Below are positions 42,840 through 63,885 of a DNA stretch of 64,000 bases, piece by piece. The position numbers and the translations under genes are program-made. Every line of letters begins with the position of its first letter. The stretch's first letter is position 1. Where the stretch lies: contig RQSC01000025.1 of the NCBI GenBank assembly GCA_013416795.1, forward strand, positions 319,842-383,841, written 5' to 3'. The stretch is from Prasinococcaceae sp. CCMP 1430. Taxonomy: Eukaryota > Prasinodermophyta > Palmophyllophyceae > Prasinococcales > Prasinococcaceae. The notes beneath the pieces are model-generated. The model made no database searches and was not told where the DNA came from. It saw only the letters and a program-made list of their open reading frames with translations.

Positions 42840-45353
42840 TCACTTGCGCTTGCGCGCGGACCGGCGCACGGGCGAGGCCGCCTCCTCGGGCTGTGCCGCC
42901 ACCGGGATCACCGCTTCGTTGGGCTCATCGTTTTGGAGGCGCTTGAGTGCCAGGGGCACACTGGGGGAATCGACGCTGGGTGCTGCCCCGGCACTGCGCT
43001 TGCGTGAGCGCGTGCTGCGTGCCGAGGTGGGATCGCTCGGTAGCGCTTTGGTCGCCCCTGTCCGCGCCACAGCTGTCTTGGCAGTCGCGCGAGCAGTCGG
43101 CCGCCGCAACTTGCTCCCCCTCCCAGCGGTCTTTGCATCGATCGTTGCAGTAGAAGCAACAGGTTCCACGGGGGTGGCCTCCGGCGCCGGCGGGCCCTCG
43201 TCGCGAGCGGCAGTCTGGGCAGCCTCGCTCAGACGCCGCAGCAAGTCGGCCTTGCGGCCAGTCGTGGGAAGGCCGCGCGCCCCCAGCTCGCGCTCCAACT
43301 CGGCCACTTTCATTGCAGACATCTCCTCCTCGGAAGGGAAAGGAGTGCTTGTGGTCGCTGGCAGCGCAGGCGTCGCGGTTGTAGGCGCAGGGGTTGCCTC
43401 CGGCTCCGGCGCGCCCTCGTCGCGAGCGGCAGTCTGGGCAGCCTCGCTCAGACGCCGCAGCAAGTCGGCCTTGCGGCCAGTCGTGGGAAGGCCGCGCGCC
43501 CCCAGCTCGCGCTCCAACTCGGCCACTTTCATTGCAGACATCTCCTCCTCGGAAGGGAAAGGAGTGCTTGTGGTCGCTGGCAGCGCAGGCGTCGTTGCAG
43601 TCTGGGCAGCAGCTAGCCCGGACACAGCTTCGGCTCCGCGCTGGCGACTCGAGCGCCGGCCGGCGCCAGAGGTGGGTGCGACCGAAGGTGCCGATGCCTG
43701 TACCGGCTCCGGCGACTCAATCGCTGCCTCGCTCGGGGTTGGCACAGCACGGCTGGCACGCCGAGACCGCTTTGCTGGCGGGGCCGCGTCTTCCTGAGCC
43801 CCGAGGCCAATCTCGGCACCGCCTGCTGGCTCCGCCGCGTCGACACTGATGCGCTTCGAGGATCGGCGCCTCTGAGGAGACACAGCGTCACGCGAGGCGA
43901 CCTTCTCTGCTACGCCGCGCTCCTTGTCCTTGCGCTTGCGTGAGCCTCGCGGAGACTTTCCTGCCGGAGACTTTCCTGCCGGGGACTTTCGCGCTTGTGC
44001 AGACGTGTGCTTGGCCTCCGCGTGTGACGCCTTCGCGTCCTGTAGGATCTTCTCCTTGTCCGCAATAGCTTTCTGACGTATCGCGTCCGCCTCAGCCTTC
44101 GCCGAAGCGAGCACGTCCTGCGCCTTCAGTTTTGCAGCAGCCAGCGCCTCTGTTGCGTCCCTATGCGCTGCTTCAGCCTCCTCGCGCCTGCGCGCAGCAT
44201 CAGCTCGAGCCGATTCAGCCGCGGCAAGTTTTTCGGAAAGCTGCACCTCCTTCTCAGAAACGGCCGCTTCATGCGCCTTGAGGGCGCCCGCACGGCTTTC
44301 AAGCTGCGCACTCTGGACTCGCAGCTGTTCCATCCGATCCTCGTATTCCTGCCGCTCCTGCTCGGCGAGCGCGCGTGCCTCCTGGTGTGCCGTTTCTGCG
44401 AGCGCGGCGGCCTCCATTCGCTCTGTGGCCTTCGCCATTTCGCGGCGTGCGGCGGCTTTCGCAGCTTCTTGGTCGGCTGCTGCCGCCGCGACGCGAGCTC
44501 CTGCGTCTCGTGTTGCCGTGTCCGCTGCGGCTGTTGCCACCTCAGCCTTGGCCTGAGCCGCCTTCATCGCCGCCTCCATCTTGCCGCTCTGGGCCTCGGC
44601 GGCGAGGGCCCTTTCCTCCGCGCTCCTCCTCGCCTCGACGAGCTTTGCAGCCTGCGCTTCGTGGGTCTTAAGCGACGCCGCCTCATCCGCTGCAATCTTC
44701 CTCGCAGCCTCTTCGGCGGCTTCGATCTTCTGCTCGGCCTCCAGCGCGCGCTTGCGCCACTCCTCGACCTGCGACGACGCCATGCTCATCTGGAGCTCGG
44801 CCTCATTGCTTCTCTGGGCGGCTTCGGCCATGGCCTTCCTTGAGTTGGCATCGACCTCGTCGATACCCGCGTGCGCAATCTCCAGCCGCTCCAAAAGGTC
44901 GTTGCGCTCGACGGTGTACTCCAGCCGCTCCGTCTCGAGCGCAGCAATGCGCCGTTCCATCTCCTGAGCGCGCGCGCGACTCACTGTATCACCTGAAGTC
45001 CCGCCACACGCGCCAAGGGCGCCGCGATCGCGGAATGTGTCCCACACCGAGCGAACGGGAGGCACCGCGGCCGAGGCGGGACGCGGCTGCGGCCTTTCGG
45101 TGAATTCTTCGCCTGCCTCATCCAGCGACGAGAAAAGCGGCATGCGCATGCCGAGCGAAGCGTACGCCCTCTTGGCGCGCGCGCTTGAGAATGCGCCCCC
45201 GGACGCTGGAGGCTCGCGTGGCTGTGGCGTGGCCGCCGCGGCGGTGGCAGCCGCAGATACCAAGAGCGCGCCCGCGCCTTCCAGACCCTCGCCACCTGCG
45301 CCGGGCGATGCAGCGAAAAGCGGGTTCGTAGCGCCGAGCTCGGCCATCACCAT
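42840..45353 (-). CDS. Coiled-coil protein with tandem SAP domains
   Basis: Single-exon protein of 837 residues from MVMAELGATNPLF. After a disordered head, one continuous coiled coil (about residues 130-450) shows strong Ala/Glu/Arg/Gln heptads. A basic region follows with KSPAGKSPAGKSPRG repeats and nuclear-localisation-like clusters (SRKRKDKERG; PPAKRSRRASR). Two SAP domains at about 608-638 and 681-711 have identical cores (MKVAELERELGARGLPTTGR then KADLLRRLSE). The C-terminus is basic (RRSARKRK). SAP domains bind scaffold/matrix-attachment DNA, so this is probably a nuclear architecture or chromatin protein. The filament-like coiled coil recalls lamin-like proteins, but no lamin signature is seen. 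Confidence 0.72.
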   Translation of the reverse strand: MVMAELGATNPLFAASPGAGGEGLEGAGALLVSAAATAAAATPQPREPPASGGAFSSARAKRAYASLGMRMPLFSSLDEAGEEFTERPQPRPASAAVPPVRSVWDTFRDRGALGACGGTSGDTVSRARAQEMERRIAALETERLEYTVERNDLLERLEIAHAGIDEVDANSRKAMAEAAQRSNEAELQMSMASSQVEEWRKRALEAEQKIEAAEEAARKIAADEAASLKTHEAQAAKLVEARRSAEERALAAEAQSGKMEAAMKAAQAKAEVATAAADTATRDAGARVAAAAADQEAAKAAARREMAKATERMEAAALAETAHQEARALAEQERQEYEDRMEQLRVQSAQLESRAGALKAHEAAVSEKEVQLSEKLAAAESARADAARRREEAEAAHRDATEALAAAKLKAQDVLASAKAEADAIRQKAIADKEKILQDAKASHAEAKHTSAQARKSPAGKSPAGKSPRGSRKRKDKERGVAEKVASRDAVSPQRRRSSKRISVDAAEPAGGAEIGLGAQEDAAPPAKRSRRASRAVPTPSEAAIESPEPVQASAPSVAPTSGAGRRSSRQRGAEAVSGLAAAQTATTPALPATTSTPFPSEEEMSAMKVAELERELGARGLPTTGRKADLLRRLSEAAQTAARDEGAPEPEATPAPTTATPALPATTSTPFPSEEEMSAMKVAELERELGARGLPTTGRKADLLRRLSEAAQTAARDEGPPAPEATPVEPVASTATIDAKTAGRGSKLRRPTARATAKTAVARTGATKALPSDPTSARSTRSRKRSAGAAPSVDSPSVPLALKRLQNDEPNEAVIPVAAQPEEAASPVRRSARKRK
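43178..43594. repeat. In-frame 198-bp tandem duplication encoding the two SAP domains
   Basis: Copies at 43178-43375 and 43397-43594 are offset by exactly 219 bp (73 codons) and nearly identical; differences lie near the first bases. Synonymous sites are also conserved, so the duplication is recent or homogenised. The 21-bp joining segments encode Thr/Ala/Pro spacers. Confidence 0.9.
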
Positions 45354-46331
45354 CGTCGTAGCCGCGTGGCACGGCGCTCGGCGGCGGCGGGGGCTGCGCC
45401 GGCGGCTGCAGCGCGCTCCAGGCTGGGCGCGCGCCGCTGTGCACGGAGTGGCGCCGCCCGCGCGTCCCCGCCACATAGGGCACGGCCGGAGGCGCCGCGC
45501 GCCGAGTCGCCGCGAAAACGCGCGCGCGCCCTTTTTTTCCCCCTCCCCCCGGGGGAAATAAACAAAATAAAAAGCGCCAAAAAATGGGCGCGGAAAAAAC
45601 TCGGCGCGGCGCGCGGCGCGCGCGAGCGCGGCTGGAGGGTGACACGTCGGGTGCCACGCTGCAGACTCCCCCGGTGTCAGCCAGGCCAGCCAATAGTAGC
45701 TATTGGAGTGACTTGGGACTAGTCCATGTCAGCGCGGCATGTGATCATTCCGAATTGATGCCGGGGATGGCGGCCGGACCGGTCCCGGGCAGATTCGGTC
45801 TGCGCAATCGGGATCCTCGAATCCTATCTGGCGCGCGCGGGCGAGCGAGGACCGCAGCAGGCCCCCGAAAAGCGCGCCGCGCAATCGCGCCGGCGATGAT
45901 AATTACAGGCGCTGGCTGGAGGGCGCACGCAATCGCGCGCGCGCGCGGCGGCCAGCCGCCCTTATCCTCTGCGCCGCGCGCGCAGAGGCGGCGCGCGCGC
46001 GGGGCGCAAACGCAAGGCCCAGCGCGCGCTGCTGCGGCGGCCGCTTCTGCCGCGCCACACGCGCACGCGCCCTCGCGCACGTTCGCAGGCTTGCGCGCGC
46101 GAGCGCACATACGCTTCCCCGGCTTGCCCCCGCTCCAGGTTCCCTCCCCCGCTCGCGCCTAACCAGCACACCCACACATCAACCAGCCCCACACCCCTTC
46201 CGCTCAGTCCTTCGCACCCATCCGCGCACGCAACTTGCCTCTTCCTGGCGCGCTGCTGACGCTCCGTCGGCGAGGATCGAGAGCCACGCACGCGCACAAG
46301 GACGCGCACACGACACGTGACCATCGTGCCG
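45354..46331. promoter_or_regulatory. Divergent spacer between SAP and TLC genes
   Basis: A 978-bp spacer with head-to-head starts. A/T-richer elements occur at 45555-45595 (AAATAAACAAAATAAAAAG) and 45695-45770. The former is about 200 bp upstream of the SAP gene start. Alternating CG/CA tracts fill the rest. No gene is supported. Confidence 0.35.
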
Positions 46332-54498: not shown

Positions 54499-54581
<83 letters not shown>

Positions 54582-55436
54582 NGCGCGTCGGCGGTGATGA
54601 GCGCGCGCACCGTCCAAGTCGCGGCCCCAGCCGCGCACCCGCGCGGCCGGACGGCCGGCCGCGGCGCGCGCGCCGACCGAGCCGCGAGACGGAACCCAGC
54701 CAGACCAGCCAGGCCCCCGGGCCAGCTGACTCCAGCCACCCCCAGGCAGCCTCCAGCCAGCCAGCCAGCTGGTCTGCTGACTGAGAGAGGCCGCGCCCGG
54801 CCGGCAGCCAGCCGGCCTCTGCGAGCGCCTCGGCTGAAGACGCGCACAGCCTGAAAGAGTCGCGACGAGTCAACTAGTACCATCAGATCGTACTACTACA
54901 GCATAGCTCTGCCTGTTGTTGTTGTTTGTGGCGGGTGTCGTGCACCTCGCGGTCGGATGTAGAATGGGATGAAAAAGCATGAGGAGTGGAGAGCGCAGCA
55001 AGCGTCCAGTCCGCGCACACCTACTACAGTAGGTAGCTACTGTGGATGAGGAATTGGAATTCGAGTGAGATGTGTGCACGTACGTGCGGCTGGGGAGGCA
55101 GCCGGCGCGTCCGTGGCCGGCTCGGACGCGTGCGTGCGCGGGTGGGCCGCCGGGCGTCGACGCGGGGGGGTGCGCANTGCTGCTGCCTGGGTGAGAGCGG
55201 ACCGGGGGGGGAGGCTGACTGACCAGGGTCTGCACGCGCGCGGCGGCGGCGAGTACGTGCGGCGCCAGTGGCAGCGCGCGCGCGGCAGGGCTGGTGGGGT
55301 GGGGGGCACGCCTTCGCGCGCAGCGCGCGGCGCGGATGGCGGTCTCCATGGGGCATCGAAATCGGCGAGGCCCAGGGGGGGGGTATCCCAGGCGGCAGGC
55401 GGGAGCGCAGCTGGCGCGGGTGGCCCGGCACCACAG
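54289..55436. other. Divergent spacer with long homopolymer and CCAGC repeats
   Basis: This 1.1-kb spacer separates the NAD kinase (-) and TauE-like (+) genes. It contains the 92-C run, CCAGCCAGCCAGC-type words at about 54700-54770, and a less GC-rich block at 54850-55065 with TAC-rich words. One undetermined base lies at 55177. A 5' exon of the TauE-like gene is expected in its right part, but I cannot place it. Confidence 0.45.
54500..54591. repeat. 92-nt poly-C homopolymer
   Basis: Uninterrupted C from 54500 to 54591, followed by one N at 54592. Length is likely unreliable, and the run may stand in for a sequencing gap. It lies about 210 bp upstream of the NAD kinase start. Confidence 0.95.
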
Positions 55437-56399: not shown

Positions 56400-57576
56400 G
56401 GGGGCGCGCCCCCGTCACCGCGCGGCCGCCGATCACTTGTGCTGATGGTATGCCTCACTCAAACACATGGACGGCCGGCCCCCATAATTATTCGGCCTTG
56501 TCGTCGATTTTCCTGCCAGAGCCGAACCCGCCGCCGCACCGCGCCTGCGACTGCACCCCCCCCACATACAGACCCCCCCCCCCAAAAATTGGTATCGTGG
56601 TTTTCCTACTCAAGTTCGTACTGTACAGTGTACTGTTCGACGCAGCTTGATTGATGGGCATGTTCCTCGTCGTGCGGGCCATGTGGTCAGCATTGCGCGC
56701 CCGCGCCCTCCGCCGCTGCCCCTCTCCCCCCCCCCCCCTCTCCTCTGCCCTCCCGCCTGGCTGGCGGTGCCCCCCCGGCGCGCCGTTGGTCAGCCCGCGT
56801 CGATTCCTGGCCCACCGCGGGCGAAGCGCCTTTTCCCGCCGCGGACCCCGCACGATCGTCGGCCGGCCGGCCGGCGATTTCCCCCTTGGCTGGCTTGGGT
56901 CCTGTCCGCCCCTGGACTGATTGGATTTCCGTTTCCATTCGTCTGCTCGTGCGTCTGTCGGTCGGTCTCGGTCTCGGTTTCGTTCTGGATCTCGATCTCG
57001 ATCTGTGGCTGTGTGTGTGTCTGTGGCTGCGACGCGGCGCGCGGCGCGCGCTCGGCCGGAGCGAGCGGCTGCCGCGGCGGCGATCGGTCGGTNCGCGAGG
57101 ATGGCGATGTAGTCGAATGAGCGCGCGCGCACAGGCACGCGCGCAGGCGCGCTCGTCGCACAGGCACACGCACGCACGCTTGCACGCATGGTCGCACACA
57201 CACCTCCCTCACCCCCCAGTCGAGCACGAATGCGACGGCGCCCGAGAACTCAGCGCGAGAGAGCTGCCGCCGCGCAGGGGTGCCGGGCGCGCCGCTTGCG
57301 CTTGCGGGGAGGCCAAGGCGGCGGGTCCACGCAAGTGGCGTTGCGCGGCGGTGCGTGCCCGTGCGCCCGCGCCGCCCTGCGAACCGCGCTGCGCACCGTC
57401 GCTCTGAGAAACCCTAGCGGGCGTACTGAATTCGCGCCGGGGAGGTTGCGAGGCGTGCGCAACCGTCGCGGGTGCAGCCGGCGGTGGTGCGCCAGCCGCG
57501 GAAGAGGCCTATCATCTTGACGAGGATCCGACTGACCCTAGCCCCTACGCGCAGGTCTCACGCGGCGCGTGCAGTC
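56400..57576. promoter_or_regulatory. Spacer upstream of methionine synthase
   Basis: This 1.2-kb spacer between the TauE-like and methionine synthase genes (same strand) contains an A/T-richer stretch at 56580-56660 with the palindromic word ACTGTACAGT. Pyrimidine-rich tracts occur at 56710-56760 and 56930-57030, and an N at 57093. CGCAG at 57549-57553, just before the gene start, could be an acceptor of a 5' UTR intron. No other gene is seen. Confidence 0.35.
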
Positions 57577-60500
57577 ATGAGCACGCTCAGTGCCTCGGGC
57601 GCCAAGGTCGTCGCACAGCTGATGCGCCTTGCGAAGGCGAACCCGGCACTCGCTGTTGGGTCACTCGCGCTGCTGTGGCCTGCGCTCAGTGTCGCGAGCG
57701 TGAGCTTCGTGCTCCTCCTGCCGCTGCTCATCCCGGCATCCGTCATCGCTCTTGCCGGCATCGTATTCTACAAGTACGTGGGCGCAGGCAATGCACACAC
57801 TGCAACGCCGGCGCCAGAGGCGAAGGAGCAGGCACCTGCCGCAACCGCCGCGGCGAGCAGCGATGACCTGCCGCCAGCGCCGAAGGAGCAAGCACCTGCC
57901 GCACCCACTGCGGCAAGCAGCGAAGACCTCCCGCCGGTGCCCGTGTACAAGCAGTGGGTCGACCCCATCCCCGAGAACGAGACGTTCGACCAGCTCCGCA
58001 AGATCATGGACGAGCGCATCATCGTGATTGACGGCGCGATGGGCACGTCTGTGCAGAAGTACAAACTGGAGGAGGAGGACTACTGCGGCACGCTGTATCC
58101 CGACCACTCGGTGGACCTGAAAGGAAACAACGACCTGCTGGTGCTCACCCGCCCGGACGTCATCGAGGAGATCCACAACAACTTTCTCGAGGCGGGTGCG
58201 GACATCATTGAGACAAACACCTTCAACGGCACGTTCATCTCGCAGGGCGACTACAACATGGACACGTACGACGAGGTGTTCGCGATCAACAAGGGCGCGG
58301 CCGAGCTGGCGAAGAAGTGCACGACTGCGTGGACCCAGAAGGACCCGTCGAGGCCGCGCTTCACCGCCGGTGCCATCGGGCCCACCAACAAGACTCTGTC
58401 GGTGTCGCCGTCGGTGGAGAACCCGGCGTTCCGCGGCTGCACGTGGGACGAGGTGGTGAAGGCGTACTACGAGCAGTGCGAGGGCCTCATGGCCGGCGGC
58501 GTTGACCTGTTCTTGGTGGAGACCATCTTCGACACGCTGAACGCCAAGGCCGCGCTGTTCGCCATCGACAAGTTCTTCGCTGACAAGAAGTGCAGGATTC
58601 CCGTGTTCGTGTCAGGCACCATCGTGGACAACTCGGGGCGCACGCTCTCCGGCCAGACCAACGAGGCGTTCTGGAACTCGCTGGCGCACAGCAAGCCGCT
58701 GGCGATCGGCCTGAACTGCGCGCTCGGCGCAGACGACATGAAGCCGTACGTCGAGAACCTGAGCAGCTGCGCGGACTGCTACGTCTTCTGCTACCCCAAC
58801 GCGGGCCTGCCCAACGCGATGGGTGGTTATGACCAGAAAGGTGACGAGTTCGCCGAGGAGATCCGCCCCTTCATGGAGGCCGGCATCCTCAACGGCATCG
58901 GCGGCTGCTGCGGCACCTCTTTCGAGCACATCAAGGCCGTCGCGGACATGGCCAAGGAGTATCAGCCGCGCGCGTGCCACGCCGTCAAGTCGCTCATGCG
59001 CCTGTCCGGCCTCGAGCCGCTGAACTACGAGCCGTGCCTGAGCAACATGCGCTCCACTTTCCTGAACGTGGGCGAGCGTTGCAACGTGGCGGGCTCGAGC
59101 ATCTTCAAGAAGGCCATCGTGGACGGCAACTGGGACAAGGCACTGTCCATCGCCGTGAAGCAGGTCGACGCGGGTGCGGACGTTGTCGACATCAACGTCG
59201 ACGACGGGCTGATCGAGCCCATCGGCGCGATGACCAAGTTCGTCAACCTGCTGGTGTCGGATCCCGAGGCCTCCAAGATGCCCTTCATGATCGATTCGTC
59301 CAAGTTCCACGTGGTTGAGTGCGGCGTCAAGTGCTGCCAGGGCAAGTCCATCGTCAACTCGATCTCGCTCAAGGAGGGCGAGGAGGCGTTCATCAAGAAC
59401 GCCAGGATGGTGAAAGCGTTTGGCTCGGCGGTGGTAGTGATGGCGTTCGACGAGAACGGTCAGGCCGCGACCTGCAAGGAGAAGGTGTCGATGTGCCAGC
59501 GCGCGTACAAGATCCTCGTGGAGGAGGTCGGCTTCAACGCGCAGGACATCGTGTTCGACCCGAACATCCTGACGATTGGCACGGGCATGGCGGAGCACAA
59601 CGACTACGCGGTGGACTTCATCAACGCCACGCGCGAGATCAAGCGCACCTGCCCGGGCTGCAAGATCTCTGGCGGCGTGTCCAACCTGGCTTTCAGCTTC
59701 CGTGGCAACGAGCCGGTGCGCCGCGCGTGCCACAGCGTGTTCCTGCACTACGCCTGTGCCGCGGGCATGGACATGGGCATCGTCAACGCCGCCCACTGCA
59801 TCGAGGACAAGTACGAGAACATCGACAAGGAGCTGCTCGGCTACGTGGAGGACCTCGTGCTCAATCGCTGCGACAACGCGACCGAGCGCATGCTCGAGTA
59901 CGCCGCCACGCTCGACCCCAAGTCCAAGCCGTGCGCTCTGCGCAAGAAGGATGAGCACAAGGCCTTCGTCGCTGCTCCCAAGATCAACGAGCACGGCGTC
60001 GACCGTATCGCCGAGCCCGATGCGAGCACGCTCGTCCCGGTGCCCGTGTACAAGCAGTGGGTCGACCCCATCCCCGAGAACGAGACGTTCGACCAGCTCC
60101 GCAAGATCATGGACGAGCGCATCATCGTGATTGACGGCGCGATGGGCACGTCTGTGCAGAAGTACAAACTGGAGGAGGAGGACTACTGCGGCACGCTGTA
60201 TCCCGACCACTCGGTGGACCTGAAAGGAAACAACGACCTGCTGGTGCTCACCCGCCCGGACGTCATCGAGGAGATCCACAACAACTTTCTCGAGGCGGGT
60301 GCGGACATCATTGAGACAAACACCTTCAACGGCACGTTCATCTCGCAGGGCGACTACAACATGGACACGTACGACGAGGTGTTCGCGATCAACAAGGGCG
60401 CGGCCGAGCTGGCGAAGAAGTGCACGACTGCGTGGACCCAGAAGGACCCGTCGAGGCCGCGCTTCACCGCCGGTGCCATCGGGCCCACCAACAAGACTCT

Positions 60501-63500
60501 GTCGGTGTCGCCGTCGGTGGAGAACCCGGCGTTCCGCGGCTGCACGTGGGACGAGGTGGTGAAGGCGTACTACGAGCAGTGCGAGGGCCTCATGGCCGGC
60601 GGCGTTGACCTGTTCTTGGTGGAGACCATCTTCGACACGCTGAACGCCAAGGCCGCGCTGTTCGCCATCGACAAGTTCTTCGCTGACAAGAAGTGCAGGA
60701 TTCCCGTGTTCGTGTCAGGCACCATCGTGGACAACTCGGGGCGCACGCTCTCCGGCCAGACCAACGAGGCGTTCTGGAACTCGCTGGCGCACAGCAAGCC
60801 GCTGGCGATCGGCCTGAACTGCGCGCTCGGCGCAGACGACATGAAGCCGTACGTCGAGAACCTGAGCAGCTGCGCGGACTGCTACGTCTTCTGCTACCCC
60901 AACGCGGGCCTGCCCAACGCGATGGGTGGTTATGACCAGAAAGGTGACGAGTTCGCCGAGGAGATCCGCCCCTTCATGGAGGCCGGCATCCTCAACGGCA
61001 TCGGCGGCTGCTGCGGCACCTCTTTCGAGCACATCAAGGCCGTCGCGGACATGGCCAAGGAGTATCAGCCGCGCGCGTGCCACGCCGTCAAGTCGCTCAT
61101 GCGCCTGTCCGGCCTCGAGCCGCTGAACTACGAGCCGTGCCTGAGCAACATGCGCTCCACTTTCCTGAACGTGGGCGAGCGTTGCAACGTGGCGGGCTCG
61201 AGCATCTTCAAGAAGGCCATCGTGGACGGCAACTGGGACAAGGCACTGTCCATCGCCGTGAAGCAGGTCGACGCGGGTGCGGACGTTGTCGACATCAACG
61301 TCGACGACGGGCTGATCGAGCCCATCGGCGCGATGACCAAGTTCGTCAACCTGCTGGTGTCGGATCCCGAGGCCTCCAAGATGCCCTTCATGATCGATTC
61401 GTCCAAGTTCCACGTGGTTGAGTGCGGCGTCAAGTGCTGCCAGGGCAAGTCCATCGTCAACTCGATCTCGCTCAAGGAGGGCGAGGAGGCGTTCATCAAG
61501 AACGCCAGGATGGTGAAAGCGTTTGGCTCGGCGGTGGTAGTGATGGCGTTCGACGAGAACGGTCAGGCCGCGACCTGCAAGGAGAAGGTGTCGATGTGCC
61601 AGCGCGCGTACAAGATCCTCGTGGAGGAGGTCGGCTTCAACGCGCAGGACATCGTGTTCGACCCGAACATCCTGACGATTGGCACGGGCATGGCGGAGCA
61701 CAACGACTACGCGGTGGACTTCATCAACGCCACGCGCGAGATCAAGCGCACCTGCCCGGGCTGCAAGATCTCTGGCGGCGTGTCCAACCTGGCTTTCAGC
61801 TTCCGTGGCAACGAGCCGGTGCGCCGCGCGTGCCACAGCGTGTTCCTGCACTACGCCTGTGCCGCGGGCATGGACATGGGCATCGTCAACGCCGCCCACT
61901 GCATCGAGGACAAGTACGAGAACATCGACAAGGAGCTGCTCGGCTACGTGGAGGACCTCGTGCTCAATCGCTGCGACAACGCGACCGAGCGCATGCTCGA
62001 GTACGCCGCCACGCTCGACCCCAAGTCCAAGCCGTGCGCTCTGCGCAAGAAGGGTGACGTAGTGGAGAAGGTCGTGGAGAAGGGCTCGTCATGGCGTGAC
62101 AAGTCCGTGCAGGACCGCCTGAGCCACTCCCTTGTGAAGGGCATCGACGAGTTTGTCGTGCGCGACACCGAGGAGGCGCGCACGTGCGGCCTTTACCCGC
62201 GCCCGCTGCACGTCATCGAGGGCCCGCTCATGGACGGCATGAGCACCGTCGGCGACCTCTTCGGCGCGGGCAAGATGTTCCTGCCGCAGGTGATCAAGTC
62301 GGCGCGCGTGATGAAGAAGGCCGTGGCGCACTTGATCCCCTTCATGGAGGAGGAGAAGCGGTTGATGGCCGAGCAGGAGGGCATTGACGCCGACGCCGAC
62401 AACTCTGTGGGCACCTTTGTGATTGCCACCGTCAAGGGTGACGTGCACGACATCGGCAAGAACATCGTGGCGGTGGTGCTGGGCTGCAACAACTGGAAAG
62501 TGATCGACCTCGGCGTGATGTGCTCGTGCCAGTCCATCCTCGACGCGTGCAAGGAGCACAACGCGGACATTCTGGGCCTCAGCGGCCTTATCACTCCTTC
62601 GCTGGACGAGATGGTCACCGTTGCCAAGGAGATGGAGAAGGCGGGCTTCAAGATCCCGCTTCTCGTGGGCGGCGCAACCACCAGCCGCATGCATACGGCG
62701 GTCAAGCTGACCCCCCAGTACAGCGGACCGACCGTGCACGTGCTCGACGCCTCGCGTGCGGTGCCGGTGTGCTCGTCACTCATTGACGAGAAGCAGTACG
62801 CCGAATTTGTCGAGGACACGCGCGAGACGTACAAGGAGATGCGCGAGGAGTTCTACGCCGGCCTCGAGGACCGCAAGTACGTTTCGCTCGAGCAGGCGCG
62901 CGCCAAGGCGCTCACGGTTGACTTTACCACGCCCGAGAACACGCCGGTGACGCCCAAGCAGCTGGGCGTCCACGTCCTGCGCGACTTTCCCATCGAGGAG
63001 GTGGTCGATTACATCGACTGGAACCCCTTCTTCCAGGTGTGGCAGCTGCGCGGCCGCTATCCGAACCGTGGCTATCCCAAGATCTTCAACGACGAGACTG
63101 TCGGTGCCGAGGCGAAGAAGCTCTTCGACGACGCACAGACCATGCTCAAAGACATCATCGCGCACAAGAAGCTTTCGCTGCGCGGCGTGCTCGGCCTCTT
63201 CCCGGCCAACTCCGTCGGTGACGACATCGAGGTGTACGCCGAAGACGGCGAGCGCGGTGCGCCCCGGGCGAGCTTCTACACCCTGCGCGAACAGGCCGAG
63301 AAGGAGAACACCAGCGAGCCCTACCTTGCGCTGGCGGACTTTGTGGCTCCGAAGGAGAGCGGCGTGAAAGATTACGTGGGCGCGTTCGTCACATCGGCCG
63401 GCTTCGGCCTCGAGGAGATGACCAAGGCGTTTAAGGCGGACAACGATGACTACAGCTACATCCTCGCTGAAGCGCTCGCGGACCGTCTGGCGGAGGCCTT

Positions 63501-63885
63501 CGCCGAGGTGGTGCACATCAAGATTCGCAAGGAGTACTGGGGATATGCGCCCGATGAGGACCTGTCGCCCGACGACCTTCTCAAGGTTAAGTACGACGGC
63601 ATCCGCCCGGCGCCGGGCTATCCGTCGCAGCCCGACCACACGGAGAAGAACACCATGTGGGAGCTCATGAAGGTCGCCGAGGAGACCGACGTGACGCTCA
63701 CCGAGTCGCTCGCCATGCTGCCGGCCGCCTCGGTGTCTGCGCTCGTGTTCGGCGGCAAGTGCTCGAAGTACTTCGCCGTTGGCAAGATCACCGACGAACA
63801 GGTGCAGGACTACGCCGCGCGCAAGAAGATGGACGTCAAAGAGGTCGAGCGGTGGCTCGCGACGAGCCTCAACTATGAGCCTTGA
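57577..63885 (+). CDS. metH: Cobalamin-dependent methionine synthase with membrane anchor and duplicated Hcy/folate half
   Basis: A 2102-residue frame without introns from [12 protein letters not shown]. Residues 30-70 are hydrophobic ([40 protein letters not shown]), then an Ala/Glu/Pro linker. The homocysteine-binding plus methyl-folate-binding half occurs twice, at about 120-791 and 821-1492. Zinc ligands C381, C444, C445 recur as C1082, C1145, C1146. A cobalamin cap and B12 domain follow, with the cobalt ligand His1624 in DVHDIG (1622-1627). The SAM-dependent reactivation domain carries [15 protein letters not shown] from 2010. The enzyme moves the methyl of 5-methyltetrahydrofolate via cobalamin to homocysteine. 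Ordinary MetH is about 1230-1270 residues, so this is longer by one full half plus the anchor. Both halves look catalytically intact. Assembly error remains possible. Confidence 0.9.
57934..62053 (+). repeat. 2017-bp direct repeat inside the methionine synthase gene
   Basis: Copy 1 is 57934-59950 and copy 2 is 60037-62053; the offset is 2103 bp (701 codons). I found no difference between the copies, wobble positions included, when comparing lines by eye and the translations of several frames. A unique 86-bp segment (59951-60036) separates them in frame and encodes [20 protein letters not shown] followed by [10 protein letters not shown]. Identity at synonymous sites means recent duplication, gene conversion or an assembly artefact. 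Confidence 0.95.

Follow-up and report, generated by a model that had tools for sequence, protein, structure and literature searches.

The methionine synthase gene

In the window, i.e., the whole stretch of 64,000 nucleotides from Prasinococcaceae sp. CCMP 1430 that was analysed, a methionine synthase of the cobalamin-dependent type (MetH) is encoded by a single ORF, which by translation starts with an ATG at 57577 and has its sole stop at the 3' end. The layout of the ORF can be written as L-U1-S-U2-R, that is, a leader (L), two copies of a unit (U1 and U2) each carrying a homocysteine (Hcy) and a folate (Fol) domain, a spacer (S) between the copies and, right of U2, a part (R) with the Cap, cobalamin (Cob), and activation (Act) domains (Table 1). 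Within the ORF, PF02574 and PF00809 were each matched twice, and PF02607, PF02310, and PF02965 once each. The zinc-Cys triad is found in both halves (GLNC at aa 378-381 and 1079-1082; GGCC at aa 442-445 and 1143-1146), GDVHDIGKN with its DxHxxG His ligand motif is found once (aa 1621), and so is RPAPGYP (aa 2010). The match to PF02965 spans 273 positions, which is indicative of the SAM-dependent reactivation domain of MetH. The ORF carries all the parts by which a MetH is recognised (Hcy barrel with Cys triad, methylfolate barrel, Cap and cobalamin domains, reactivation domain), and all catalytic motifs are intact in both substrate halves and in the C-half. The original prediction had described two complete substrate halves on one B12/SAM half, and Pfam, motif scan, and alignment verified the order of the domains, the integrity of the motifs in either half, and the presence of only one B12/SAM half. 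The gene departs from the usual one-of-each module count of MetH, which is not strictly defining, in having two Hcy-Fol halves with one C-half. Nor is it a split MetH, in which the Hcy domain lies on a separate ORF, as one open frame spans all the domains.

Table 1. Features of the methionine synthase ORF (positions in the window)
Feature	Position	Strand	Basis and remarks
ORF, single, uninterrupted, 2102 aa	57577..63885	+	leader - [Hcy+Fol] - spacer - [Hcy+Fol] - Cap - Cob - Act
Leader L, aa 1-119	57577..57933	+	hydrophobic aa 24-69, then Ala/Pro/Glu-rich linker
Unit U1, complete substrate half, first copy, 2017 bp	57934..59950	+	exact repeat comparison, Pfam
Hcy domain 1, PF02574	58021..58950	+	Pfam, motif scan; Cys triad intact
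Folate domain 1, PF00809	59071..59787	+	Pfam
Spacer S, 86 bp	59951..60036	+	codon usage, genome search; in-frame peptide of 28 residues + (V)
Unit U2, complete substrate half, second copy	60037..62053	+	repeat comparison; 100% identical to U1
Hcy domain 2, PF02574	60124..61053	+	Pfam, motif scan
Folate domain 2, PF00809	61174..61890	+	Pfam
Linker II, folate domain 2 to Cap, 28 aa	62008..62091	+	contains right repeat end 62053
Cap domain, PF02607	62110..62334	+	Pfam
Cobalamin domain, PF02310	62413..62688	+	Pfam, motif scan; GDVHDIGKN at 62437
SAM-dependent activation domain, PF02965	62992..63828	+	Pfam, motif scan; RPAPGYP at 63604

The computed mass of the full chain is ~230 kDa, and that of the chain lacking one unit and the spacer is ~153 kDa; these values correct the ~225 and ~135 kDa that were given earlier. 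In the leader, hydropathy predicts the hydrophobic stretch to be a membrane anchor or hairpin. The Ala/Pro/Glu-rich linker that follows is a 60-bp imperfect tandem repeat (57812-57871 and 57872-57931, 85%).

The repeated unit and the spacer

The two units form an exact direct repeat with an offset of 2103 bp (701 codons) and 0 mismatches. Sequence comparison therefore bore out the 2017-bp duplicated unit of the original prediction at 100% identity, and an exact repeat of 2 kb excludes chance. Similarity between U1 and U2 vanishes immediately past each end of the repeat. The left end lies within the leader at the N-terminus, before the Hcy barrel, and the right end lies 14-15 residues into the Fol-Cap linker (...EYA to WR); what is duplicated is therefore precisely one rigid substrate half. 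Since Linker II makes up only ~2% of the gene, a random break or a contig end would seldom fall there. The counterpart of Linker II is flexible in solved MetH structures (PMC10567725; PMC13376404).

The spacer appears coding-like solely in the frame linking U1 to U2, with a score of +0.32 per codon on a scale on which false-frame windows never exceed -0.50 and the true-frame minimum is +0.16. This is indicative that S is native coding sequence and not junk, although a spacer brought in artefactually from a second allele would look the same. The in-frame joining of U1 to S carries little weight, because it would occur in one of three artefacts of any kind and out-of-frame cases go unreported. 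The genome search found no other copy of S in the assembly. A simple tandem duplication as the sole event was considered and rejected, as S, besides being unique in the genome, resembles neither L, to the left of U1, nor R, to the right of U2; sequence unlike both outer flanks excludes a single clean duplication. Altogether, U1 and U2 are joined via ~61 residues without a predicted domain. No in-frame ATG is present in S, and the first ATG of U2 comes just before the Hcy barrel (KIMDERI).

Genome setting

The assembly that includes the window has a size of 24.5 Mb in 145 contigs and is gapped. The organism is a photosynthetic alga of the green lineage: LHC genes are present and, among single-domain PDB chains, match green-type Lhcb proteins best. 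The Euglena LHC match 9vfj owes its high score in part to chains with several LHC domains and was therefore left aside in the identification. LHC-containing frames of up to 6555 aa were considered as polyproteins, but were given no weight because frames of such length may merely run through N gaps. Bacterial contamination was rejected as a source of the MetH gene, since its best PDB match is human MTR and the contig also has, a few kb downstream, an ORF that is presumably eIF3c-like.

The gene is the only methionine synthase detected in the alga. Elsewhere in the 24.5-Mb assembly, there is no second MetH gene, pseudogene or allele and no further copy of the unit, and the leader has insignificant matches only. 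MetE was not found in the assembly, whose gaps mean that its absence is not proven. The alga thus appears to rely on this enzyme alone, and any change in the layout of a sole methionine synthase would act on growth in B12-poor water. Prasinoderma coloniale is a B12 auxotroph without a B12-independent methionine synthase, and the assembly of its strain CCMP 1413 comprises 25.3 Mb (69.8% GC) in 22 PacBio chromosomes (PMC7455551). The one other match to PF02574 in the alga is a stand-alone homocysteine S-methyltransferase exon on a different contig (C85:114012-114620).

There is no N within the gene or at either unit junction, and the nearest N upstream is at 57093. In the assembly as a whole, single-N joins recur every few kb, alongside large N gaps and poly-C runs (51 to 82 bases), some of which end against an N; all these features look like marks of gap filling. 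The poly-C runs were seen in the window at 54500-54582 (82 bases) and in two other sampled sequences (L026:2760-2811 and L038:4331, 51 bases each), and the first two abut a single N. Right after the N at 57093, just upstream of the gene, begins a 166-bp stretch (57094-57260) that recurs at 98% identity on another contig (C72:227058-227223), with more distant copies elsewhere. Apart from the unit, the longest exact direct repeat in the ~250 kb sampled (the window among them) has 182 bp; long exact repeats are thus not widespread in the assembly. The 182-bp match itself (43194-43375, second copy at +219) lies inside the minus-strand ORF 42840-45476; if this ORF is a gene, the 219-bp offset corresponds to an in-frame internal repeat of 73 aa.

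Comparison with known methionine synthases

MetH is a textbook example of domain choreography, as a single B12 domain has to reach three partners. Its Hcy and folate barrels make up a single rigid body, and the B12 domain shuttles between these barrels and the activation domain (PMC10567725, PMC13376404). Over U2-R, the best PDB match is human MTR with 1548 bits. Human MTR (9ssp) and Thermus MetH (8g3h, 8ssc) share with the alga the same five domains in the same order, the zinc-Cys triad, the B12 His, and the activation motifs, and the folate residues at the positions of R585 and R591 of human MTR are kept in the alignment. Unlike these enzymes, the alga has two Hcy-Fol halves instead of one, plus the hydrophobic leader. 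Its Fol-Cap linker is also longer: it has 28 aa, whereas human MTR has 15 and eight bacterial enzymes have 15-18. The Hcy-Fol fragment of Thermotoga maritima MetH (1q7m, 1q8a), a rigid two-barrel substrate half, is the counterpart of the unit; in the alga, however, this half is present twice and is fused to the B12 half. MetE is likewise a methionine synthase shaped by internal duplication, two-barrel and cobalamin-independent (PMC539065). The barrels of MetE have diverged and MetE is without detectable sequence homology to MetH, whereas U1 and U2 of the alga are identical.

In split MetH enzymes, the parts are distributed over separate chains (PMC7857596), which is indicative that the modules of MetH need not stand in a 1:1 covalent order. 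The split enzymes of bacteria have one of each module, whereas the alga has an extra pair of modules in a single chain. Two substrate halves occur in none of 32 prokaryotic MetH loci related to the gene, and several of these loci are split between the Hcy and the folate parts. The Hcy part and the folate-B12 part are in different frames in the bacterial loci L051, L055-L063, L070, and L073, and also, with larger gaps, in L053 and L072. Among the matches listed from 40 + 249 genomes of two bacterial groups, no MetH-type Hcy ORF exceeds about 1400 aa. A Calditrichaceae MAG has the final ~53 aa of its MetH activation domain a second time, some 0.75 kb downstream of the gene (L067:10480-10638). 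IMG/VR held no relatives of the spacer-unit junction or of this MetH, and no description of an architecture with a doubled substrate half was found in the literature. The original prediction spoke of a new architecture, which fits this survey (0/32 prokaryotic loci; none among the ORFs listed from ~290 genomes), but the term cannot stand for an established, diverged architecture, as the two copies are identical.

Real duplication or assembly product

The identity of the copies sets a limit on their age. At mutation rates of 5e-10 to 1e-9 per site and generation (4.79e-10 in O. tauri; PMC6604790), zero differences in 2017 bp mean that the copies would have evolved independently for less than about 0.7-1.5 million generations. 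Copies that are identical to the letter must be very recent, maintained by gene conversion, or a product of assembly. In the last case, the true gene would be an ordinary single-unit MetH, and two contigs with different ends, overlapping through the unit, would have been set one after the other rather than merged; S would then be either a leader from a second allele or haplotype or a chimeric contig end. Such an artefact is a serious rival, somewhat short of even odds, and has to be excluded first given the perfect identity and the quality of the assembly, with its many single-N joins, its large gaps, and its poly-C runs next to N. A spacer that matches neither L nor R, and searches of the assembly and IMG/VR in which no diverged copy or relative backs the duplication, point the same way. 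Against it stand the end of the repeat inside Linker II and not at a random place, the native-looking coding sequence of S in frame on both sides, the lack of N at either junction, and the lack of any other exact tandem repeat above 182 bp in the ~250 kb sampled. Weighing both sides, we regard it as moderately likely that the gene truly has at least two units per B12 half, which is a judgement and not a computation. If the layout proves to be an assembly error, the annotation of a marker enzyme for vitamin B12 would need correction; if the DNA is truly so shaped, the alga has an unusual enzyme layout.

Three further explanations presuppose a real duplication and are not mutually exclusive, so that their likelihoods overlap. 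The duplication could have arisen recently in the sequenced culture as a neutral or slightly harmful mutation, U1 being idle, which is rather unlikely but well within consideration: zero divergence fits such recency, and although the placement of both ends in linkers looks as if enzyme function had been retained, the same placement would be needed for an idle copy in the sole MetH. We consider it improbable that the chain does not work as one enzyme, being either cut at S or bypassed by an internal start of translation or transcription, to give a membrane-held Hcy-folate half and a normal MetH from U2 onward. Cleavage would suit the flexible-looking segment S and the occurrence of bacterial MetH parts as separate chains (PMC7857596), and an internal start at the first ATG of U2 would lose little of the enzyme; however, the frame is fully open across both junctions and S itself offers no in-frame ATG. 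Lower still do we rate an array of more than two units, leader-(U-S)n-U-R, collapsed by assembly. Identical units with a single type of junction are the expected picture of a collapsed array, and identical 2.1-kb units would probably not be reliably countable from an assembly, but the assembly has exactly two.

Possible origin and working of the doubled substrate half

With a probability of about 0.55, we favour a eukaryotic MetH whose substrate half has been duplicated in tandem and in frame inside one gene. At the level of sequence, the favoured reading draws on the architecture, the motifs, the coding-like spacer, the repeat ends in linkers, and a sole MetH without MetE; from these we infer the physical reality of the duplication, its origin, the membrane attachment, and the use of U1 by the B12 domain. 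The presence of three different flanks (L, S, and R) makes a fusion of two gene copies the easiest explanation. Probably, two MetH copies, one led by L and the other by S, lay head to tail and were fused via a deletion that removed the B12/activation half of the first copy and the start of the second, in which case S would be a remnant of the second copy's leader. The units could have been kept identical up to the ends of homology by gene conversion, or could be identical owing to recency.

As for its working, U2-Cap-Cob-Act has all the parts of a complete MetH and probably acts as an ordinary one, and U1 is probably a second rigid Hcy-folate body on a flexible tether of ~61 residues that the same cobalamin domain may also visit. 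To judge from the domain layout, the extra half is most likely an additional substrate module served by this one B12 domain, and the long tether together with the 28-residue Linker II makes visits to U1 plausible. Alternative docking or a higher capture of substrates, as proposed in the original prediction, would be speculative benefits of such a module. If true, the enzyme would let one test whether the visits of the B12 domain are limited by tethering, substrate occupancy, or stoichiometry. The leader, with its predicted anchor or hairpin, may hold the protein at a membrane.
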